Source: Methanocalculus alkaliphilus (GTDB taxonomy: Archaea > Halobacteriota > Methanomicrobia > Methanomicrobiales > Methanocorpusculaceae). From it: 64,000 nt of DNA. Below, piece by piece: positions 51,336 to 58,620 of this stretch (the first letter of the stretch is position 1; each line of letters starts with the position of its first letter). The translations under genes and the position numbers were made by a program. The notes below the pieces were generated by a model. That model was given only the letters and a program-made list of their open reading frames with translations. It did no database searches and was not told the origin of the DNA. Location: assembly GCF_024170505.1 (NCBI RefSeq), contig NZ_JALJYG010000004.1:62001-126000 (forward strand). The letters are read 5' to 3'.

Positions 51336-52706
51336 ATGATTATGGACTGGGCAGAGAAGTACAGGCCGAAGGAACTTGCGGATATTGTCGGCAACAGATC
51401 CGCAGTTCATCAACTCCTTGACTGGGCGAAGGACTGGACATCGGAGCACAAGCCTGTTCTTCTCTATGGCAAGCCCGGTATCGGGAAGACATCGACTGCG
51501 TATGCTCTGGCCCGGGATCTCGGATGGGAGATTATTGAACTGAATGCGAGTGATCAGCGGACAAAAGGTGCAATTGAGCGGATAGCGGGGAGCTCAAGTG
51601 TGACTGCCAGCCTCTCTGGTGCCAGGCGGCGGCTGATCCTCCTTGATGAAGCCGATAATCTTGAGGGTAATGCCGACCGCGGGGGGGCAAAGGCGATAGC
51701 AGATATCATCCGGCATTCACGCCAGCCGATTATTCTGATCGCAAATGATGCATATGGGGTCGCACCCGAGGTCCGGAAGCTCTGTGAACAGATACAGTTC
51801 CGGGCCGTCCCTGCCCGGTCACTTGCCCCGTATCTCAGAGGGATCTGCGCGTCAGAGGGTCTGCACTGTGATGAGGAAGCGATTCGGATGATCGCCGAGG
51901 ATGCCCGGGGGGATATTCGATCAGCCCTGAATATGCTCTTTGGAACGTCGGTTGGCAGAGATCGAATAACCCCTGCCGATCTTCATGCCCATCAGAAAGA
52001 TTCCCGCTCCACGATCTTTGATCTCATTGCAAAGACCATCTCAGGGAGCCCGGATGATACACTCATTCGTCTCTCGTATGAGGTTGAGGATACGCCTGAT
52101 GCTGTTATTCAGTGGCTTGAGGGTGCTGTCGCCCAGCACCGGGAGGGATGGAGGCGGGCGTCCGGACTTTCCATACTTTCTCGTGCCGATCTCTATATTG
52201 GCCGGACATTCAGACGCCAGTACTATACCCTCTGGAGGTATGCGTCTGCGATTATGCTGATCGGATCATCCACAATCTCACATGGAAGCGGGCTTCGGCC
52301 CCGGCTTGCCCCTCCCGGCCGGTGGCAGAGGATGGGGCAGGCGCGCAGACAGAAACAGGTGCGCCTCTCTCTTGAGAATCGCCTCTCAGAGGCATTTCAG
52401 ATACCACAGAGGACCATCTCTGAAGAATATCTGACATTTATTTCAAGGATTGCCGATTATAATCCGACACAGGTAGTCCGTCTTCTCAATCTTGATACTG
52501 ACCAGCTCGGTCTCCTTATTCACGACAAGGTGCGTGCGGGGAAGATCATAAAAGAGATGGAAAAAGAGGCGAAAGACGAAGCGAAACGAAAGAAGGTGGC
52601 TCAGAGGGGAAAAGAGGAGCAAAAAACCCTGGAGAAGACGCCATCTTCAGAGAAGAGCGCTCCTGAGAAGAAACAGCCTTCTCAGTCCACCCTCTTCTCC
52701 TTCTGA
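51336..52706 (+). CDS. rfcL: Replication factor C large subunit
   Basis: 456 residues. Walker A LYGKPGIGKTSTAYALA, Walker B LILLDEADNLEG and the AAA+ sensor region FGTSVGRDRITPADL are visible. A charged Lys/Glu-rich tail (~400-445) ends in the PIP box QSTLFSF, the sliding-clamp contact. With RfcS it loads PCNA. The gene converges on UPF0146 with a 25 bp overlap of coding ends. Confidence 0.95.
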   Translation: MIMDWAEKYRPKELADIVGNRSAVHQLLDWAKDWTSEHKPVLLYGKPGIGKTSTAYALARDLGWEIIELNASDQRTKGAIERIAGSSSVTASLSGARRRLILLDEADNLEGNADRGGAKAIADIIRHSRQPIILIANDAYGVAPEVRKLCEQIQFRAVPARSLAPYLRGICASEGLHCDEEAIRMIAEDARGDIRSALNMLFGTSVGRDRITPADLHAHQKDSRSTIFDLIAKTISGSPDDTLIRLSYEVEDTPDAVIQWLEGAVAQHREGWRRASGLSILSRADLYIGRTFRRQYYTLWRYASAIMLIGSSTISHGSGLRPRLAPPGRWQRMGQARRQKQVRLSLENRLSEAFQIPQRTISEEYLTFISRIADYNPTQVVRLLNLDTDQLGLLIHDKVRAGKIIKEMEKEAKDEAKRKKVAQRGKEEQKTLEKTPSSEKSAPEKKQPSQSTLFSF

Positions 52707-53107
52707 GACCTGACATACCGGCGGAGTATGACGCCACAGTTGATGATCTCACCACCATCTGCATATATCTCGCACCCAAGGTGATAGACGAGAAGATCTG
52801 CTCCAACTGTTGTGGCAATCCTGATGAGGTCGGGCATCATCTCAATTCCCGGCCTGACTGCATAGATGCAGTCGGCCTCCTGATAGAGATGCAGGTCAGG
52901 GCTATGAATATCATCGATAGCCACATCCAGTCCATTTCTGCTGGATATTGGTTTGATATCAATACAGAGGATTGATCCTCCCATATCTCTGATGATGCTT
53001 GCGGAGGTTATATTATCCCCCGATCCGACTTCTACGATGTTTTTGTATCTCTTTCCAATATAGAGCCCGATACATTGCTCAATATGTTTATACCCACGCA
53101 TTTCCAA
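52682..53107 (-). CDS. UPF0146 protein
   Basis: 141 residues. YKNIVEVGSGDNITSASIIR and SILCIDIKPI resemble a Rossmann-like methyltransferase core but are shorter, as usual for UPF0146. LVYHLGCEIYADGGEIINCGVILRRY closes the domain. Function unknown. The 3' end overlaps rfcL. Two ATG starts (53107 and 53101) are equally possible. Confidence 0.87.
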   Translation of the reverse strand: MEMRGYKHIEQCIGLYIGKRYKNIVEVGSGDNITSASIIRDMGGSILCIDIKPISSRNGLDVAIDDIHSPDLHLYQEADCIYAVRPGIEMMPDLIRIATTVGADLLVYHLGCEIYADGGEIINCGVILRRYVRSQKEKRVD

Positions 53108-53116
53108 TCTACAGGT

Positions 53117-53647
53117 ATGGGAATACTGGTTTATTGGGACTTTCGATCACCGGATGGTATTCAGACTCCGGTACACCGGATTATCTCGGGTCTGATCGGT
53201 TGTCCTGCTGACCTTATTCCTGGCGATCACTTTCCCCTTGATGGGTATCACCGAATTCGAAGGCAATATGATGCTAGTCGTATACTTGACAGGATCAGTC
53301 TCTTCAAACGTATGCATGCCATCGATACCCCGTTTCTTCTGGTGATACCGGATGATATCTACACCGAATCCTCGGACTTTGTCTTTGGTCTGGCACGCTC
53401 ATCCACCGGATCGGCTGTTGTATCGACTGCCCGCCTTGAGAATGAATACTATGGTCGTGATGAAGATACCGGCCTGCTCATCGAGAGGATCGCAAAAGAA
53501 GGCCTGCATGAGATCGGCCATCTGTTTGGTCTGACTCATTGTTCCATACCCGAATGCATCATGTTCCAGCCAGGTACCATGGGTGAACTGGATCGCAAGC
53601 AAAAATGGTTCTGCCCGGGATGCCGATCACTCCTTCCGACACTCTGA
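53117..53647 (+). CDS. amzA: Archaemetzincin-type metalloprotease
   Basis: 176 residues from the ATG at 53117; the longer reading at 53075 would overlap the divergent UPF0146 gene. The active site is HEIGHLFGLTHC (HExxHxxGxxH plus Cys), followed by the family's four-Cys zinc site (Cys in HCSIPECIMF and WFCPGCRSLL). It is a zinc metalloprotease of undefined substrate. The gene lies 84 bp upstream of the Cas1 homologue in the same direction. Confidence 0.93.
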   Translation: MGILVYWDFRSPDGIQTPVHRIISGLIGCPADLIPGDHFPLDGYHRIRRQYDASRILDRISLFKRMHAIDTPFLLVIPDDIYTESSDFVFGLARSSTGSAVVSTARLENEYYGRDEDTGLLIERIAKEGLHEIGHLFGLTHCSIPECIMFQPGTMGELDRKQKWFCPGCRSLLPTL

Positions 53648-53731
53648 TGGAATCGCATCGGAGTACTTTTCCAAAGTTTAATCTCCAGAACACGGTATAA
53701 TATACAGTAATTCTGTTGTTGAGGTTTGGTT

Positions 53732-54667
53732 TTGGTTCAGAAGAAGGTTCCATGGCATGCTATATGGGGGTATGGGGCACATATCAAGTCAACTCCAGGG
53801 CTGTTATATGTTCAGAAACGCTCGTTTCAGTCGAGTTATCCTTTGGATGACATAAAGCACCTCCTGCTTGTGGGAGGGCACACAATCCAGACGGCAACGA
53901 TCAACCGCCTCCTTGAAAAGGGATCATGGTTATCGTTCTTTGATGCACATGGCACCCCTCTGGGTACTCTCAGGCCATTTGGAGGAATTGGGAATGAGGA
54001 TATATCCTGTCTTCAGACCTCAGTTCCCTCTCATCGGTATGTGGTTGAGTTTGCAGCATCCTCGATGCGCTCACGGCTTCTCTGGCTGGAAGAACTTGAT
54101 TCCAGACACGAGACAGGTCTCTTCTATCGTGGAGAACAGGATTTCCTTCATCAGGCGCTACATGAGGTGGAATTCCTCGTCAGGATCGAAGAGATTCGTC
54201 GGATTCATTCTTTGTCGACGACGATGTATTACGAGATCCTCTCAAGGCTGGTTCCTCCGGAACTGGAGTTTCGGAGAAGAACGCATCGCCCCCACTTTGA
54301 TCCGATAAACGCGATGCTCTCCTTTGGCTATGCCCTGCTCTTTGGAAATGCCTGTGTAGCTGTTATTGGTGCCCATCTGGATCCTGATCATGGCCTTCTG
54401 CATCAGGGGGGAGGAGGCTTTATTTATGATATCATCGATCCACTGAAGCAATCTATGGTTGACTCTGTCGTTCTGGATATTGCGCAGAACGCAAAAGTCT
54501 CAGGAAAATTTGAATTAAGCCAGACCCGGTGTGTACTCGGGGATGATCTCATCTCACTCCTTCTGGAGAGGCTTTATTCCACAATCAACCAGAAGATGAT
54601 CGATGAGAATGTTTATTCATATCTCCAGTCTCTTCATGGTGGAGAGTTTACGATGTATTACCCGTAA
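53732..54667 (+). CDS. cas1: Stand-alone Cas1 homologue
   Basis: 311 residues from the TTG at 53732, seven bases after GAGG; another TTG is at 53726. Cas1 blocks are clear: HLLLVGGHTIQTATINRLLE, GSWLSFFDAHGTPLG, HRPHFDPINAMLSFGYALL, LDPDHGLLHQG and FIYDIIDPLKQSMVD. Of the usual metal ligands, His and Asp remain (H226, D235 when numbered from the first TTG), but the position normally Glu (GIEGxAAxxY) is His (RIHSLSTTMYY, H161). No cas2, other cas genes, CRISPR array or PolB lie in the window, so it is neither a CRISPR adaptation module nor a casposon here. It may be an integrase or a repurposed nuclease. Confidence 0.9.
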   Translation: MVQKKVPWHAIWGYGAHIKSTPGLLYVQKRSFQSSYPLDDIKHLLLVGGHTIQTATINRLLEKGSWLSFFDAHGTPLGTLRPFGGIGNEDISCLQTSVPSHRYVVEFAASSMRSRLLWLEELDSRHETGLFYRGEQDFLHQALHEVEFLVRIEEIRRIHSLSTTMYYEILSRLVPPELEFRRRTHRPHFDPINAMLSFGYALLFGNACVAVIGAHLDPDHGLLHQGGGGFIYDIIDPLKQSMVDSVVLDIAQNAKVSGKFELSQTRCVLGDDLISLLLERLYSTINQKMIDENVYSYLQSLHGGEFTMYYP

Positions 54668-54942
54668 TTTGCTTTTTTTATCGAGAAGTCGGTAAACGGG
54701 GTGTCAATATAGTGGTATACTTCTATATCCCTGATTATGGCCCGTGGACATCCATACAGCATCGATACAAACTTTTCAAGGATGACACCATCGCCTGTTG
54801 CAAGTATGCGAACCCTCCCATCGGTCAGGTTTTCAACCTCCCCTGCAACACCAAGATTGGTCGCGATATGTCTGGCACAGGCACGAAATCCGACTCTCTG
54901 TACTTTTCCTGAGATAATGACTTCAATCGTCTTCATGATCAT
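54658..54942 (-). CDS. acyP: Acylphosphatase
   Basis: 94 residues (or 92 from the ATG at 54936). GKVQRVGFRACARHIATNLGVAGEVENLTDGRVRI has the catalytic Arg (VGFR) and the Asn in ENLTDG of the family. It hydrolyses carboxyl-phosphate bonds of small acyl phosphates. Its 3' end overlaps the Cas1 gene end by 10 bp. Confidence 0.93.
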   Translation of the reverse strand: MIMKTIEVIISGKVQRVGFRACARHIATNLGVAGEVENLTDGRVRILATGDGVILEKFVSMLYGCPRAIIRDIEVYHYIDTPFTDFSIKKANYG

Positions 54943-54993: not shown

Positions 54994-57900
54994 TTATTCA
55001 ATTCTGTATCCGGGATTTGATATTCCCTCGTCATCCATCTCCTGGATCAGCTGCATCGCCACATATAGTTCGCTGATTACCTCATCACGAACTTCCGGGG
55101 TAATAATATTTGTTGCTGTGGCCATTGCCATATCAAAGAGGTTGCCTCCATGCTCGTACTCTCCATTGACAAATGAAACAAGGGCAAGATCACAGAGAAT
55201 AAATGCACGGCGGGGGAGAGGGCGAATGATGCTCGCCTCCCGTATTGCCTGTTGAATCAGCTGCTCCACCCTTCTGCTCTGTGAACGGCGCTGGATAAGC
55301 ATGGCTATTCCAAGATAATACTGCGCCCGAACACCCCTGTCATGGATCTTCTGGATTTTTCGTTCGATGAGAGCAACATCTGCTATCCGCCCCCCTTCAT
55401 TCAGATGTTGTTCAAGGAGAATCCGTGGTATGTCTGTCTTAAGATCTGTTGATCCAAGCATAACCATCAGTCCCAGGTCTTCGGCAATGCTCATCCTGAC
55501 CGTCTCATCAGATATGCTCTCAAGCAGTTCAATGATCAGTTCGCCAATGTGATTCTCCTGACTGGTACTATATTCATTAACAAGATGTGTGATAATGCGC
55601 TTTTTTATTGTTGCAATAATGAAAGGAACCTTAATACTTTCACTTGACTGGATTGCTGATCGGATACAGGCCTCCTTATCCTCCCATGGCATCTGAATCT
55701 CAGAAGAGAAGGCAAAGTCAATGAGTAAGGTGGCCCGATCGTAATGAATGGGAATCGCATTCATCTTCTCATATGCTTTTTTAATAAGCTCCCTCTTCTT
55801 TGAAAGGCTCGAAATTATTTTAAGCACAGGAATTGTTGCATAGACAAATTCAATTGGATCTGTTATATCCTGAAGGAGTTTCTCGGGATCCGGGAGATCG
55901 CTTGCCTCCCCGAACATCTCCGTATATGCGACGATGGCCGTTGCGAGCTGGCGTCGTGCATGATCCTTCGTCTCTGGTGAAATTTTTTGTATACGGTGCA
56001 GTGCCTCTACGATACACTCTCTGGAAGAAAGTGAGTTCATCTCTGTCAGAAGAACCGCTGTTCTTGTTAGGATCTCATGCGCCTCTTCGGGATTAAGATC
56101 ATCAACGCCATACCGGATCTGAAGGAGTATCTCACCGGCTGTATTGAGTTCTCCGATGTCAAGGTGGGCGCGTGCACTATCACAGAGTTTTATACTCCTG
56201 ATGAATGGATCCTCAATTGCAGTTACTATCTGCCTGATGAGTGCAAGGGTCGTGGTTGACTGTGCTGTTATTGAGAATGACTGGATGATGGTTGCTATGG
56301 TTTCATAAGGACTGCTCATATTCATATCAATCTGATTGAGAAGAGGGCGAATCCTTGTGGAGCAGCGAAGGATAATTGCCCTTCTGTTGATTGCATCATC
56401 GACTTCAAGGATTAACATCGATATAGGGATGATATATGGGACCGGATCAGTCTTCTGGCTGTAATCCATGATTGTATCAATACCATTTGTGATGGTTCTG
56501 TGCCGATCCGGTGAGCTGATCTCATTCCTCAGAATTGATAATGCGGTAAGGAAGGGTTCTATTGCCCATTCAAGGGATTCAACCGATCTCATGATCACCG
56601 GCTGTTCGAGGCGCTTACACCCTATGGTTATATAGGTGCTGATGCATGACTCCAGCTGTTCTCTCCTTTTTTTGGTGTCATGTACTGTTTGTATCATCTC
56701 ATGTGCTTTGGTCAGCGCATCAGTGGATGACATCTCTCTGGCAAACTGTATCATCCCTTCGATGATTGTGTCAATGGCAACTGATTGAAATTCTCCGGTA
56801 AGAAGATCTTTCCACCATGTATTTACACGAACCAGAAGATTGAGATCCCCCTGCACAATTGCAAGCGAGGCTATCTCGTATATTATCTGGACAATTGCAT
56901 CAGATCGGGTCTTCTCATCGGCAATCATGCACCCGATAGCAACAGCATGCTGGATAATATCCCGGTTTGCCTCATTGACCCCTTCCCGTGCAATTTCGAT
57001 AATAATCTGGGCAATCGACTGGTCCTGCTTCATTGGATGGTGTATCTGCTGAACCAGGTCAAGCAGTGAGGAAGTATGCTGGTGTATGACAATATCACTG
57101 TCAATCAGGGAACCAAGGATGTGGATGACGGCATCATCCGGTGATGAATGAAAGGAGGAGAGGTGGAGAAGCGTCTCCCTTCCTTTTTTGAATGAATCTA
57201 TTCCATCCTCGCTGAGATATGCCTCCTGTGATGTGACGATCAGATCATCCAGGAGATCCTGCTGGCCGGAGAAGAGTGGAAACAGGTTTTGTTCTGCATC
57301 TGCAAGATTACCATCCTGAATCGATCGTTTGAGCAGAATTGTTGCTGTCTGCATCCCTTTCCCGATCAATGCCTCTCCCCCGGCAATGATTCGGGCAAAG
57401 AGAAGATACGCCTCATGTATGTACCCGGCAGAAGATAACTTTTCGATGAGCTGAAAAATTATGCGCGTGTTTGTATGGATACATGGTTTATCTGCAATAA
57501 TATGGTAGATTTGCAGCAGCTGATCATTTCGGGGCGGATACTCCTCCTTAGCGACGGCAACCTGAATGAGCCTTCTCAAATGCCCGTCTCCATAGGGGGT
57601 TATGTCCTTTTTCATCTCAGAAAGGAGTGTATCAAGGATATATCCGGCAGGATCGTCTTCTATTTCCCTGAGTATACCTGTAATTATCTCCTGATAGTAC
57701 TCTGGCGCTATCCCGAAGAGTTTTTCCAGATCAGCTTTAAGACTCTCATTCCTTCTCTTTTTTGCAATAAGAACTGTAGTGAAGGCTGATATGTATTCGA
57801 CTCTGCTTTCCGGGGGTATCTCTTCAAAAGTGTTGTGAATAAACCCGTTAATGTCAACGAGGTATTCGGCTCCTTCCATTGCTGCGATACGGTGAAAAAT

Positions 57901-58620
57901 TGTTTTAAAGGCCTCTTCTCCAAGACCTTTCTGTGGAATTTCTGTGGCCCGATGAAATGCCTCATCAAGGATACCCATATCGTTGTTTGAGATGCCAATT
58001 GCTGCGAATGCATCAATAATTTGAAGATTTAAAGTGGATTGTGTGCTCATCTCGCGAATTTCCTGGATAATATCTGAGCATAGTATAAGGAGATCGCGAT
58101 CCTGGGTGGCTGCTGCATATTGTGTAAGACCTGGGATAATCTTCTTGATCGCCTCGGAACGGTTTTTCTTAAAGTCAATATCACGAATGTATGTAATACC
58201 CGTCCTGATAAGGGATGGATCGTCCCGTCTCTTCCCCTCTTCAATGAACCGTTCACCAATGGAAGCAACATAATTGGATCTCTGGCTCTTGCGTTCGATG
58301 AGATCCAAAAGCCGATCTGAACGCCTGAGCCACTGGTTGTCATTGGAGCTGAGGTACTCCTCTACACAAAGAAGTGCGATCTCACCAGGATTTTTTACTT
58401 TTCCGTCTATTCCAAAATCTATATATTCTGGTTTCTTTCTTTCAAAAGCTGCCTTAAGAAGGGTATCAATAACTTTCTCTATTACCTCGCTCCGCTCACG
58501 CTTGACGGATATTGCTTTTATTTCCTTGAGAAAAGCTGAGATACCATCTATATCGTCGGCCTCAATTAAGGAATAAAAAACTTCCGAAGAATTGGCCGGG
58601 ATTTCTTCATTGGTAAACAT
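54994..58620 (-). CDS. Giant alpha-helical (solenoid-like) protein of unknown function
   Basis: 1208 residues, almost entirely predicted helix with 30-45 residue helical-pair units of TPR/HEAT character. Examples are DDIDGISAFLKEIKAISVKR, ARRQLATAIVAYTEMFGEAS and RAQYYLGIAMLIQRRSQSRR, and the recurring unit ends in AxAxxxxxxG-like turns. No signal peptide, membrane segment or catalytic motif is seen, so it is probably a cytosolic scaffold. An AT-rich TATA-like tract lies ~30-50 bases upstream and no ribosome site is visible. The codons are more AT-rich than in the neighbours. It is not a family I recognise. Its nearest neighbours are acyP/cas1 and glmM. Confidence 0.8.
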   Translation of the reverse strand: MFTNEEIPANSSEVFYSLIEADDIDGISAFLKEIKAISVKRERSEVIEKVIDTLLKAAFERKKPEYIDFGIDGKVKNPGEIALLCVEEYLSSNDNQWLRRSDRLLDLIERKSQRSNYVASIGERFIEEGKRRDDPSLIRTGITYIRDIDFKKNRSEAIKKIIPGLTQYAAATQDRDLLILCSDIIQEIREMSTQSTLNLQIIDAFAAIGISNNDMGILDEAFHRATEIPQKGLGEEAFKTIFHRIAAMEGAEYLVDINGFIHNTFEEIPPESRVEYISAFTTVLIAKKRRNESLKADLEKLFGIAPEYYQEIITGILREIEDDPAGYILDTLLSEMKKDITPYGDGHLRRLIQVAVAKEEYPPRNDQLLQIYHIIADKPCIHTNTRIIFQLIEKLSSAGYIHEAYLLFARIIAGGEALIGKGMQTATILLKRSIQDGNLADAEQNLFPLFSGQQDLLDDLIVTSQEAYLSEDGIDSFKKGRETLLHLSSFHSSPDDAVIHILGSLIDSDIVIHQHTSSLLDLVQQIHHPMKQDQSIAQIIIEIAREGVNEANRDIIQHAVAIGCMIADEKTRSDAIVQIIYEIASLAIVQGDLNLLVRVNTWWKDLLTGEFQSVAIDTIIEGMIQFAREMSSTDALTKAHEMIQTVHDTKKRREQLESCISTYITIGCKRLEQPVIMRSVESLEWAIEPFLTALSILRNEISSPDRHRTITNGIDTIMDYSQKTDPVPYIIPISMLILEVDDAINRRAIILRCSTRIRPLLNQIDMNMSSPYETIATIIQSFSITAQSTTTLALIRQIVTAIEDPFIRSIKLCDSARAHLDIGELNTAGEILLQIRYGVDDLNPEEAHEILTRTAVLLTEMNSLSSRECIVEALHRIQKISPETKDHARRQLATAIVAYTEMFGEASDLPDPEKLLQDITDPIEFVYATIPVLKIISSLSKKRELIKKAYEKMNAIPIHYDRATLLIDFAFSSEIQMPWEDKEACIRSAIQSSESIKVPFIIATIKKRIITHLVNEYSTSQENHIGELIIELLESISDETVRMSIAEDLGLMVMLGSTDLKTDIPRILLEQHLNEGGRIADVALIERKIQKIHDRGVRAQYYLGIAMLIQRRSQSRRVEQLIQQAIREASIIRPLPRRAFILCDLALVSFVNGEYEHGGNLFDMAMATATNIITPEVRDEVISELYVAMQLIQEMDDEGISNPGYRIE

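Follow-up and report, generated by a model that had tools for sequence, protein, structure and literature searches.

Why should Methanocalculus alkaliphilus keep a gene for a full Cas1 that has lost its catalytic glutamate and has no CRISPR array beside it? The gene, cas1-solo, lies at 53732 to 54667 on the forward strand of the window (the whole stretch of 64,000 nucleotides that was analysed) and encodes 311 residues plus a stop codon. An alternative in-frame TTG at 53726 would give 313 residues; residues are numbered from it here, and the H226 and D235 named in the original prediction fit the same start. Of the two, the TTG at 53732 is the more probable start, because a GAGG at 53721 to 53724 (forward strand), a probable ribosome-binding site, lies 7 nt ahead of it and because the arrangement of GAGG followed by TTG is kept in orthologues of the Methanocalculus clade. 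A TATA-like stretch, TATAATATA, at 53696 to 53704 on the same strand is a candidate archaeal promoter element, picked out by eye only. Low expression had been read from the non-ATG start, but this does not follow, since orthologues outside the genus mostly start with ATG while the genus itself conserves the ribosome-binding site.

The identity of the product is clear. Cas_Cas1 (PF01867) matches the whole protein (profile positions 3-280 of 283, E 7.7e-45), TIGR00287 matches over the model's cut-off (E 5e-36), and the nearest named relatives are those of other Methanocalculus species, with 89% identity to M. chunghsingensis. An AlphaFold2 model from a 66-sequence alignment reached a mean pLDDT of 91.5 and matched Cas1 structures in a fold comparison, A. 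fulgidus Cas1 (4n06) best (E 3e-18); 4n06 is also the best PDB match by sequence profile (E 2e-31), and the TM score against 6opm_B is 0.82. As the model shows, the window protein is predicted to fold as a normal Cas1. The profile matches, together with the column comparison below, confirm the earlier description of a full Cas1 that keeps its His and Asp ligands (H226, D235). A. fulgidus Cas1, in contrast to the window protein, is an active nuclease with an intact site.

No other Cas1 is present in the genome (a 2.09 Mb assembly, 99.89% complete). The assembly gave no match to the Cas2 family, to the RAMP families or to Cas7/DevR, and the window holds no CRISPR-like repeats, which bears out the view of this gene as a solo Cas1 without CRISPR context; these absences and the lost glutamate also separate it from CRISPR-associated Cas1. 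That stand-alone cas1 genes occur in some methanogens was likewise correct, as they match the known Cas1-solo group 1 (PMC4046053). This group is described as exclusive to Methanomicrobiales, as without evidence of horizontal transfer, and as having no member that retains every active-site residue, which makes endonuclease activity unlikely (Krupovic et al., 2014, citing Makarova et al., 2013; PMC4046053). The window gene is a member of group 1, assigned by the group's described features: a Cas1 domain that spans the whole protein, no association with CRISPR-cas, an incomplete active site, restriction to Methanomicrobiales and vertical inheritance. Among the papers searched, none dealt with the function of the group. 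A more recent publication terms the Cas1-solo outgroup "probably vestigial" and speculates that group 1 may be a recent ancestor in Cas1 evolution (PMC9755687).

The distribution of the gene is that of a core gene. All 61 sampled relatives, from 17 genera, have an orthologue, and so does each of the 55 order members in a phylum-wide sample (E 1e-89 or better), the best match outside the order being a CRISPR-type Cas1 at 2e-48. Of 232 genomes of the order, 219 carry some Cas1; among the 135 with a completeness of 90% or more, 134 do. When GTDB contigs were scanned with a pattern, 80 loci were recovered, all titled as Methanomicrobiales, as genera of the order or, in a few cases, as 'Euryarchaeota' MAGs. 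Viral carriage was rejected, as the pattern scan found no relative of the solo Cas1 among viral contigs, and the best plasmid matches are CRISPR Cas1s of about 27% identity. The solo proteins form a single clade (100/100) and neighbourhoods are conserved within families, so that the prediction of a vertically kept non-CRISPR Cas1 is upheld; Methanocorpusculum branches apart from Methanocalculus in the solo tree, which is not fully congruent with their membership of one family. The solo Cas1 is thus a stable, vertically inherited core gene of nearly the whole order, also in members without CRISPR.

This last point bears on whether the protein could act as a regulator or dominant-negative partner of CRISPR adaptation, pairing with an active Cas1 to modulate spacer uptake. 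Cas1 proteins dimerise, and many genomes of the order carry both a solo and a canonical Cas1. However, about 103 genomes of the order have exactly one Cas1, which scores in the solo range (a hand count from the table), and in these, as in the window genome, the gene is under strong selection with no other Cas1 to pair with; the window genome also lacks Cas2. We therefore regard a role in adaptation as very improbable.

The neighbours of the gene speak to its age rather than to its function. As predicted, it lies between archaemetzincin and acylphosphatase genes: amzA upstream at 53075 to 53647, in the same direction (forward strand; PF07998, E 4e-21), and acyP at 54658 to 54942 on the reverse strand, convergent with it (PF00708, E 2e-17). 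At their 3' ends cas1-solo and acyP share 10 bases (54658-54667). A UPF0146 gene on the reverse strand (52682-53117) overlaps the 5' end of the long amzA reading frame (forward strand, TTG 53075), and the start of amzA is probably the ATG at 53117 rather than that TTG. Next to acyP lies a gene for a repeat-like protein of 1208 residues (54994-58620, reverse strand). Among about 60 loci of the order, the downstream genes shared by several families are acyP (26 loci), the gene for the 1208-residue protein (21) and a phosphoglucosamine-mutase-like gene (22), whereas upstream amzA (27 loci) and UPF0146 (23 loci) are confined to the window's own family and other families have other upstream genes. 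The proposed synteny thus holds across several families for acyP, but for amzA only within the window's family. The conserved neighbourhood indicates that the locus is stable and old, and this stable synteny makes a mobile element unlikely. In most families cas1-solo is probably its own transcription unit, and its neighbours give no hint of function.

Is the gene then a relic, as proposed (PMC9755687)? The loss of catalytic residues is what a vestigial gene might be expected to show, but selection on the rest of the protein contradicts this. No stops or frameshifts were found in the 61 orthologues. By the Nei-Gojobori method, dN/dS across 324 solo pairs with dS below 1.5 has a median of 0.15 (range 0.04-0.33), and 19 positions are invariant in a set of 32 solo sequences spanning families. 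Between the window and M. chunghsingensis the value is 0.053 for cas1-solo, as compared to 0.059 for acyP, 0.079 for the gene of the 1208-residue neighbour, 0.112 for rfcL and 0.118 for amzA. Given this purifying selection and the near-universal presence of the gene, we reject the notion of a vestigial gene without function, which retains next to no credibility. Strong purifying selection shows instead that the solo Cas1 has a cellular function independent of CRISPR.

This function is unlikely to be the ancestral one, judging from an alignment that combined 135 distinct solo proteins, 45 CRISPR Cas1s and 6 casposases, whose active site has been described as E162, H232 and E247 (PMC6977970). 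At the position of the catalytic glutamate the window protein has His161 (codon CAT, 54206 to 54208, forward strand), with the family-invariant tyrosine at +7 (Y168). All 45 CRISPR Cas1s and all 6 casposases have E and H in the catalytic columns, so that the change from Glu to His is not an alignment artefact, and here the original prediction was right. His226 (54401 to 54403), the ancestral catalytic histidine, is kept in the window protein but lost in about half of the group, while the ancestral acidic pair (D235 to D238, 54428 to 54439, both features again on the forward strand) is largely retained, with D235 in 130/135 and D or E at 238 in 129/135. Column by column, the 135 solo proteins have H59 S30 F20 Y13 A3 Q3 N3 E3 L1 at the glutamate, H69 Y26 N11 R9 S8 T5 F3 K2 Q2 at the histidine, D130 E5 at the first acidic position and E84 D45 A3 G3 at the second. 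The entropy of the glutamate column lies at the 65th percentile in solo proteins versus the 0th in CRISPR Cas1.

It had been suggested that the protein still works as a nuclease or integrase, with metal bound at a remodelled site that includes His. The window protein does carry H161, H226, D235 and D238, a state that recurs in 21 of the 135 solo proteins. However, the glutamate column accommodates nine different residues, including Phe, Leu and Ala, and the catalytic histidine is present in only 69/135. It is kept in 29 of the 59 proteins with His at the glutamate position and in 40 of the 76 others, which indicates that His161 and His226 are not maintained together. Since one function in one vertical lineage should require a constant site, we reject a His-based metal site and consider an enzyme of this kind improbable. 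His161 is, as far as the alignment tells, one of several tolerated residues and no conserved new ligand. A takeover of catalysis by another glutamate was rejected as well: the invariant E170, nine residues past 161 on the same helix, points 180 degrees away.

A complete E-H-D-D/E set occurs in one solo protein and is incomplete in the other 134 of 135. The exception, L154 (5001-5918, in the LacPavin MAG of Methanomicrobiales), has a full E-H-D-E set, and Glu at the old position is found in three related orthologues (L154, L143 and L172). L154 forms a small subgroup with the other two, in which its full set seems to have been either regained or preserved, and some activity is conceivable in a few species.

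If catalysis is not what selection maintains, what is? An answer is suggested by where the conserved residues of the solo group now lie. A motif R159-x(7)-M167-Y-Y-E170-xxx-R174 (54200 to 54247, forward strand) is invariant in 135/135 solo proteins. Its residues R159, M167, E170 and R174 lie on one face of the helix 154-175, opposite the old catalytic glutamate position, which the same helix carries. On this back face the mean entropy is 0.53 bit in solo proteins versus 2.75 bits in CRISPR Cas1, with the caveat that the solo set is shallower and its entropies are lower in general. The shift is directional: on helix 154-175 it points -161 degrees from residue 161 (permutation p<0.001), and none of the other eight helices reaches a permutation p of 0.05. 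Clustering of the solo-specific invariants along the sequence was not significant (p 0.39); only the helical-face test was. This comparison shows that constraint has shifted from the catalytic side of the helix to the side that faces away from it.

A new face might still serve DNA. It is possible that the solo Cas1 is a non-catalytic binder of DNA structures, a dimer that would hold branched DNA or 3' overhangs and, at forks or junctions, protect them or recruit repair factors without cutting. E. coli Cas1 acts on branched DNA (PMC4046053), the Cas1 fold is intact in the model, residues invariant in all Cas1 (Q97, Y168, R185, N195, D246) are kept in the solo group and several invariant arginines are new (R117, R159, R174, R184, R268). 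The charge of the protein argues otherwise. Solo proteins have a median net charge of -5, as compared to +4 for the order's canonical Cas1s and +8 for casposases; 86% of the solo proteins are acidic, and in 12/12 same-genome comparisons the solo protein is more acidic than the canonical Cas1. The closest CRISPR relatives are only near neutral (-8 to +1), and part of the solo acidity may be inherited. In addition, constraint on the old active-site face has been lost, and linkage to repair genes is absent outside the window's genus. On balance we hold a DNA-structure binder to be a tentative, rather unlikely alternative.

A more appealing scenario, to which we assign a probability of roughly 0.6, is that the solo Cas1 is catalytically dead and serves as a non-catalytic scaffold or adaptor with a Cas1 fold, which would hold a conserved protein partner or a small anionic ligand via its new face; given the acidic charge, we hold either to be more probable than DNA. 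A Cas1 lineage would have given up its role in CRISPR or as an integrase before Methanomicrobiales diversified and would then have been inherited vertically as a core gene. Since the catalytic Glu is lost, and the catalytic His too in roughly half of the species, it would most probably be neither an integrase nor a nuclease. The scaffold, presumably a dimer, would most likely act through a putative binding surface formed by R159, L163, M167, E170 and R174 on the rear side of the helix that once carried the catalytic Glu, a surface to which other group-specific invariants (R117, E137, R184 and R268) perhaps also belong. The retention of D235 and of an acidic residue at 238 counts against a dead scaffold, as some metal binding may persist.

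From which Cas1 did this lineage arise? A tree of 83 sequences was rooted with casposases, identified as such by the similarity of L252 to 6opm (1e-192); in this tree the solo clade and the Cas1s of type III loci are sister groups (99/91). When seven more type III relatives were added, the solo group fell within their clade, with 99/99 for the union. Casposases form a separate clade (100/100) and the PolB genes of the genome sit on contigs other than the window's, in keeping with the claim that this is a non-casposon Cas1; a casposon origin was rejected on the grounds of the separate clade and the lack of PolB nearby. Casposases (Cas1-solo group 2; 6opm) share the Cas1 fold and the lack of CRISPR association, but they have a full active site, about 400 residues and a PolB within a mobile element, unlike the window protein with its 311-313 residues and its stable locus among housekeeping genes. 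The tree places the solo group with type III CRISPR Cas1 rather than with casposases, and descent from CRISPR is favoured on phylogenetic grounds. However, a topology that unites all CRISPR Cas1s and leaves out the solo group was not rejected by the AU test (p 0.29 and 0.41), so that a basal position is compatible with the data, and the solo stem is very long (1.7-2.15).

The closest sequence relatives are the type III CRISPR Cas1s of Methanosarcinaceae and some Methanomicrobiales (L213-L216, L218, L269-L274), with E values of 1e-34 to 1e-48 against the solo profile. Unlike the solo group, those of L213-L216 and L218 have complete catalytic residues. CRISPR arrays lie beside L214-L216: L214 has a III-D-like effector beside it (Csm3-like, Csm2 and Csx1 genes) as well as Cas2, and L216 a III-B effector (Cas10b and Cmr3). 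L213, L214 and L215 are type III-D-like loci of one family (coded f8, probably Methanosarcinaceae) with Cas1 and Cas2, and with long arrays for L214 and L215. Elsewhere in the phylum, two Cas1-like reading frames of L231 (5758-7504) lie in tandem next to a CRISPR array, with an overlap of a few bases. Whether a type III adaptation enzyme lost catalysis and was permanently exapted to an order-wide, CRISPR-independent core protein that acts through a new binding face at the back of the helix is, in our judgement, evenly balanced.

In earlier work, Cas1-solo group 1 served as a candidate ancestor of CRISPR Cas1 and was set aside as vestigial. The locus described here resembles the group as known in its lack of CRISPR association, its confinement to Methanomicrobiales, the lack of any sign of horizontal transfer and its incomplete active site; what is added is the universality across the order, the strong purifying selection, the R-x(7)-MYYE-xxx-R face and a possible relationship to type III systems. 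The gene is thus of a known kind, and the new evidence is for functional exaptation over a relic. A Cas1 match alone should not be annotated as CRISPR in Methanomicrobiales methanogens. If our reading is true, an immune integrase would have been domesticated for housekeeping in a whole archaeal order, and R-x(7)-MYYE-xxx-R would be a precise motif to mutate.
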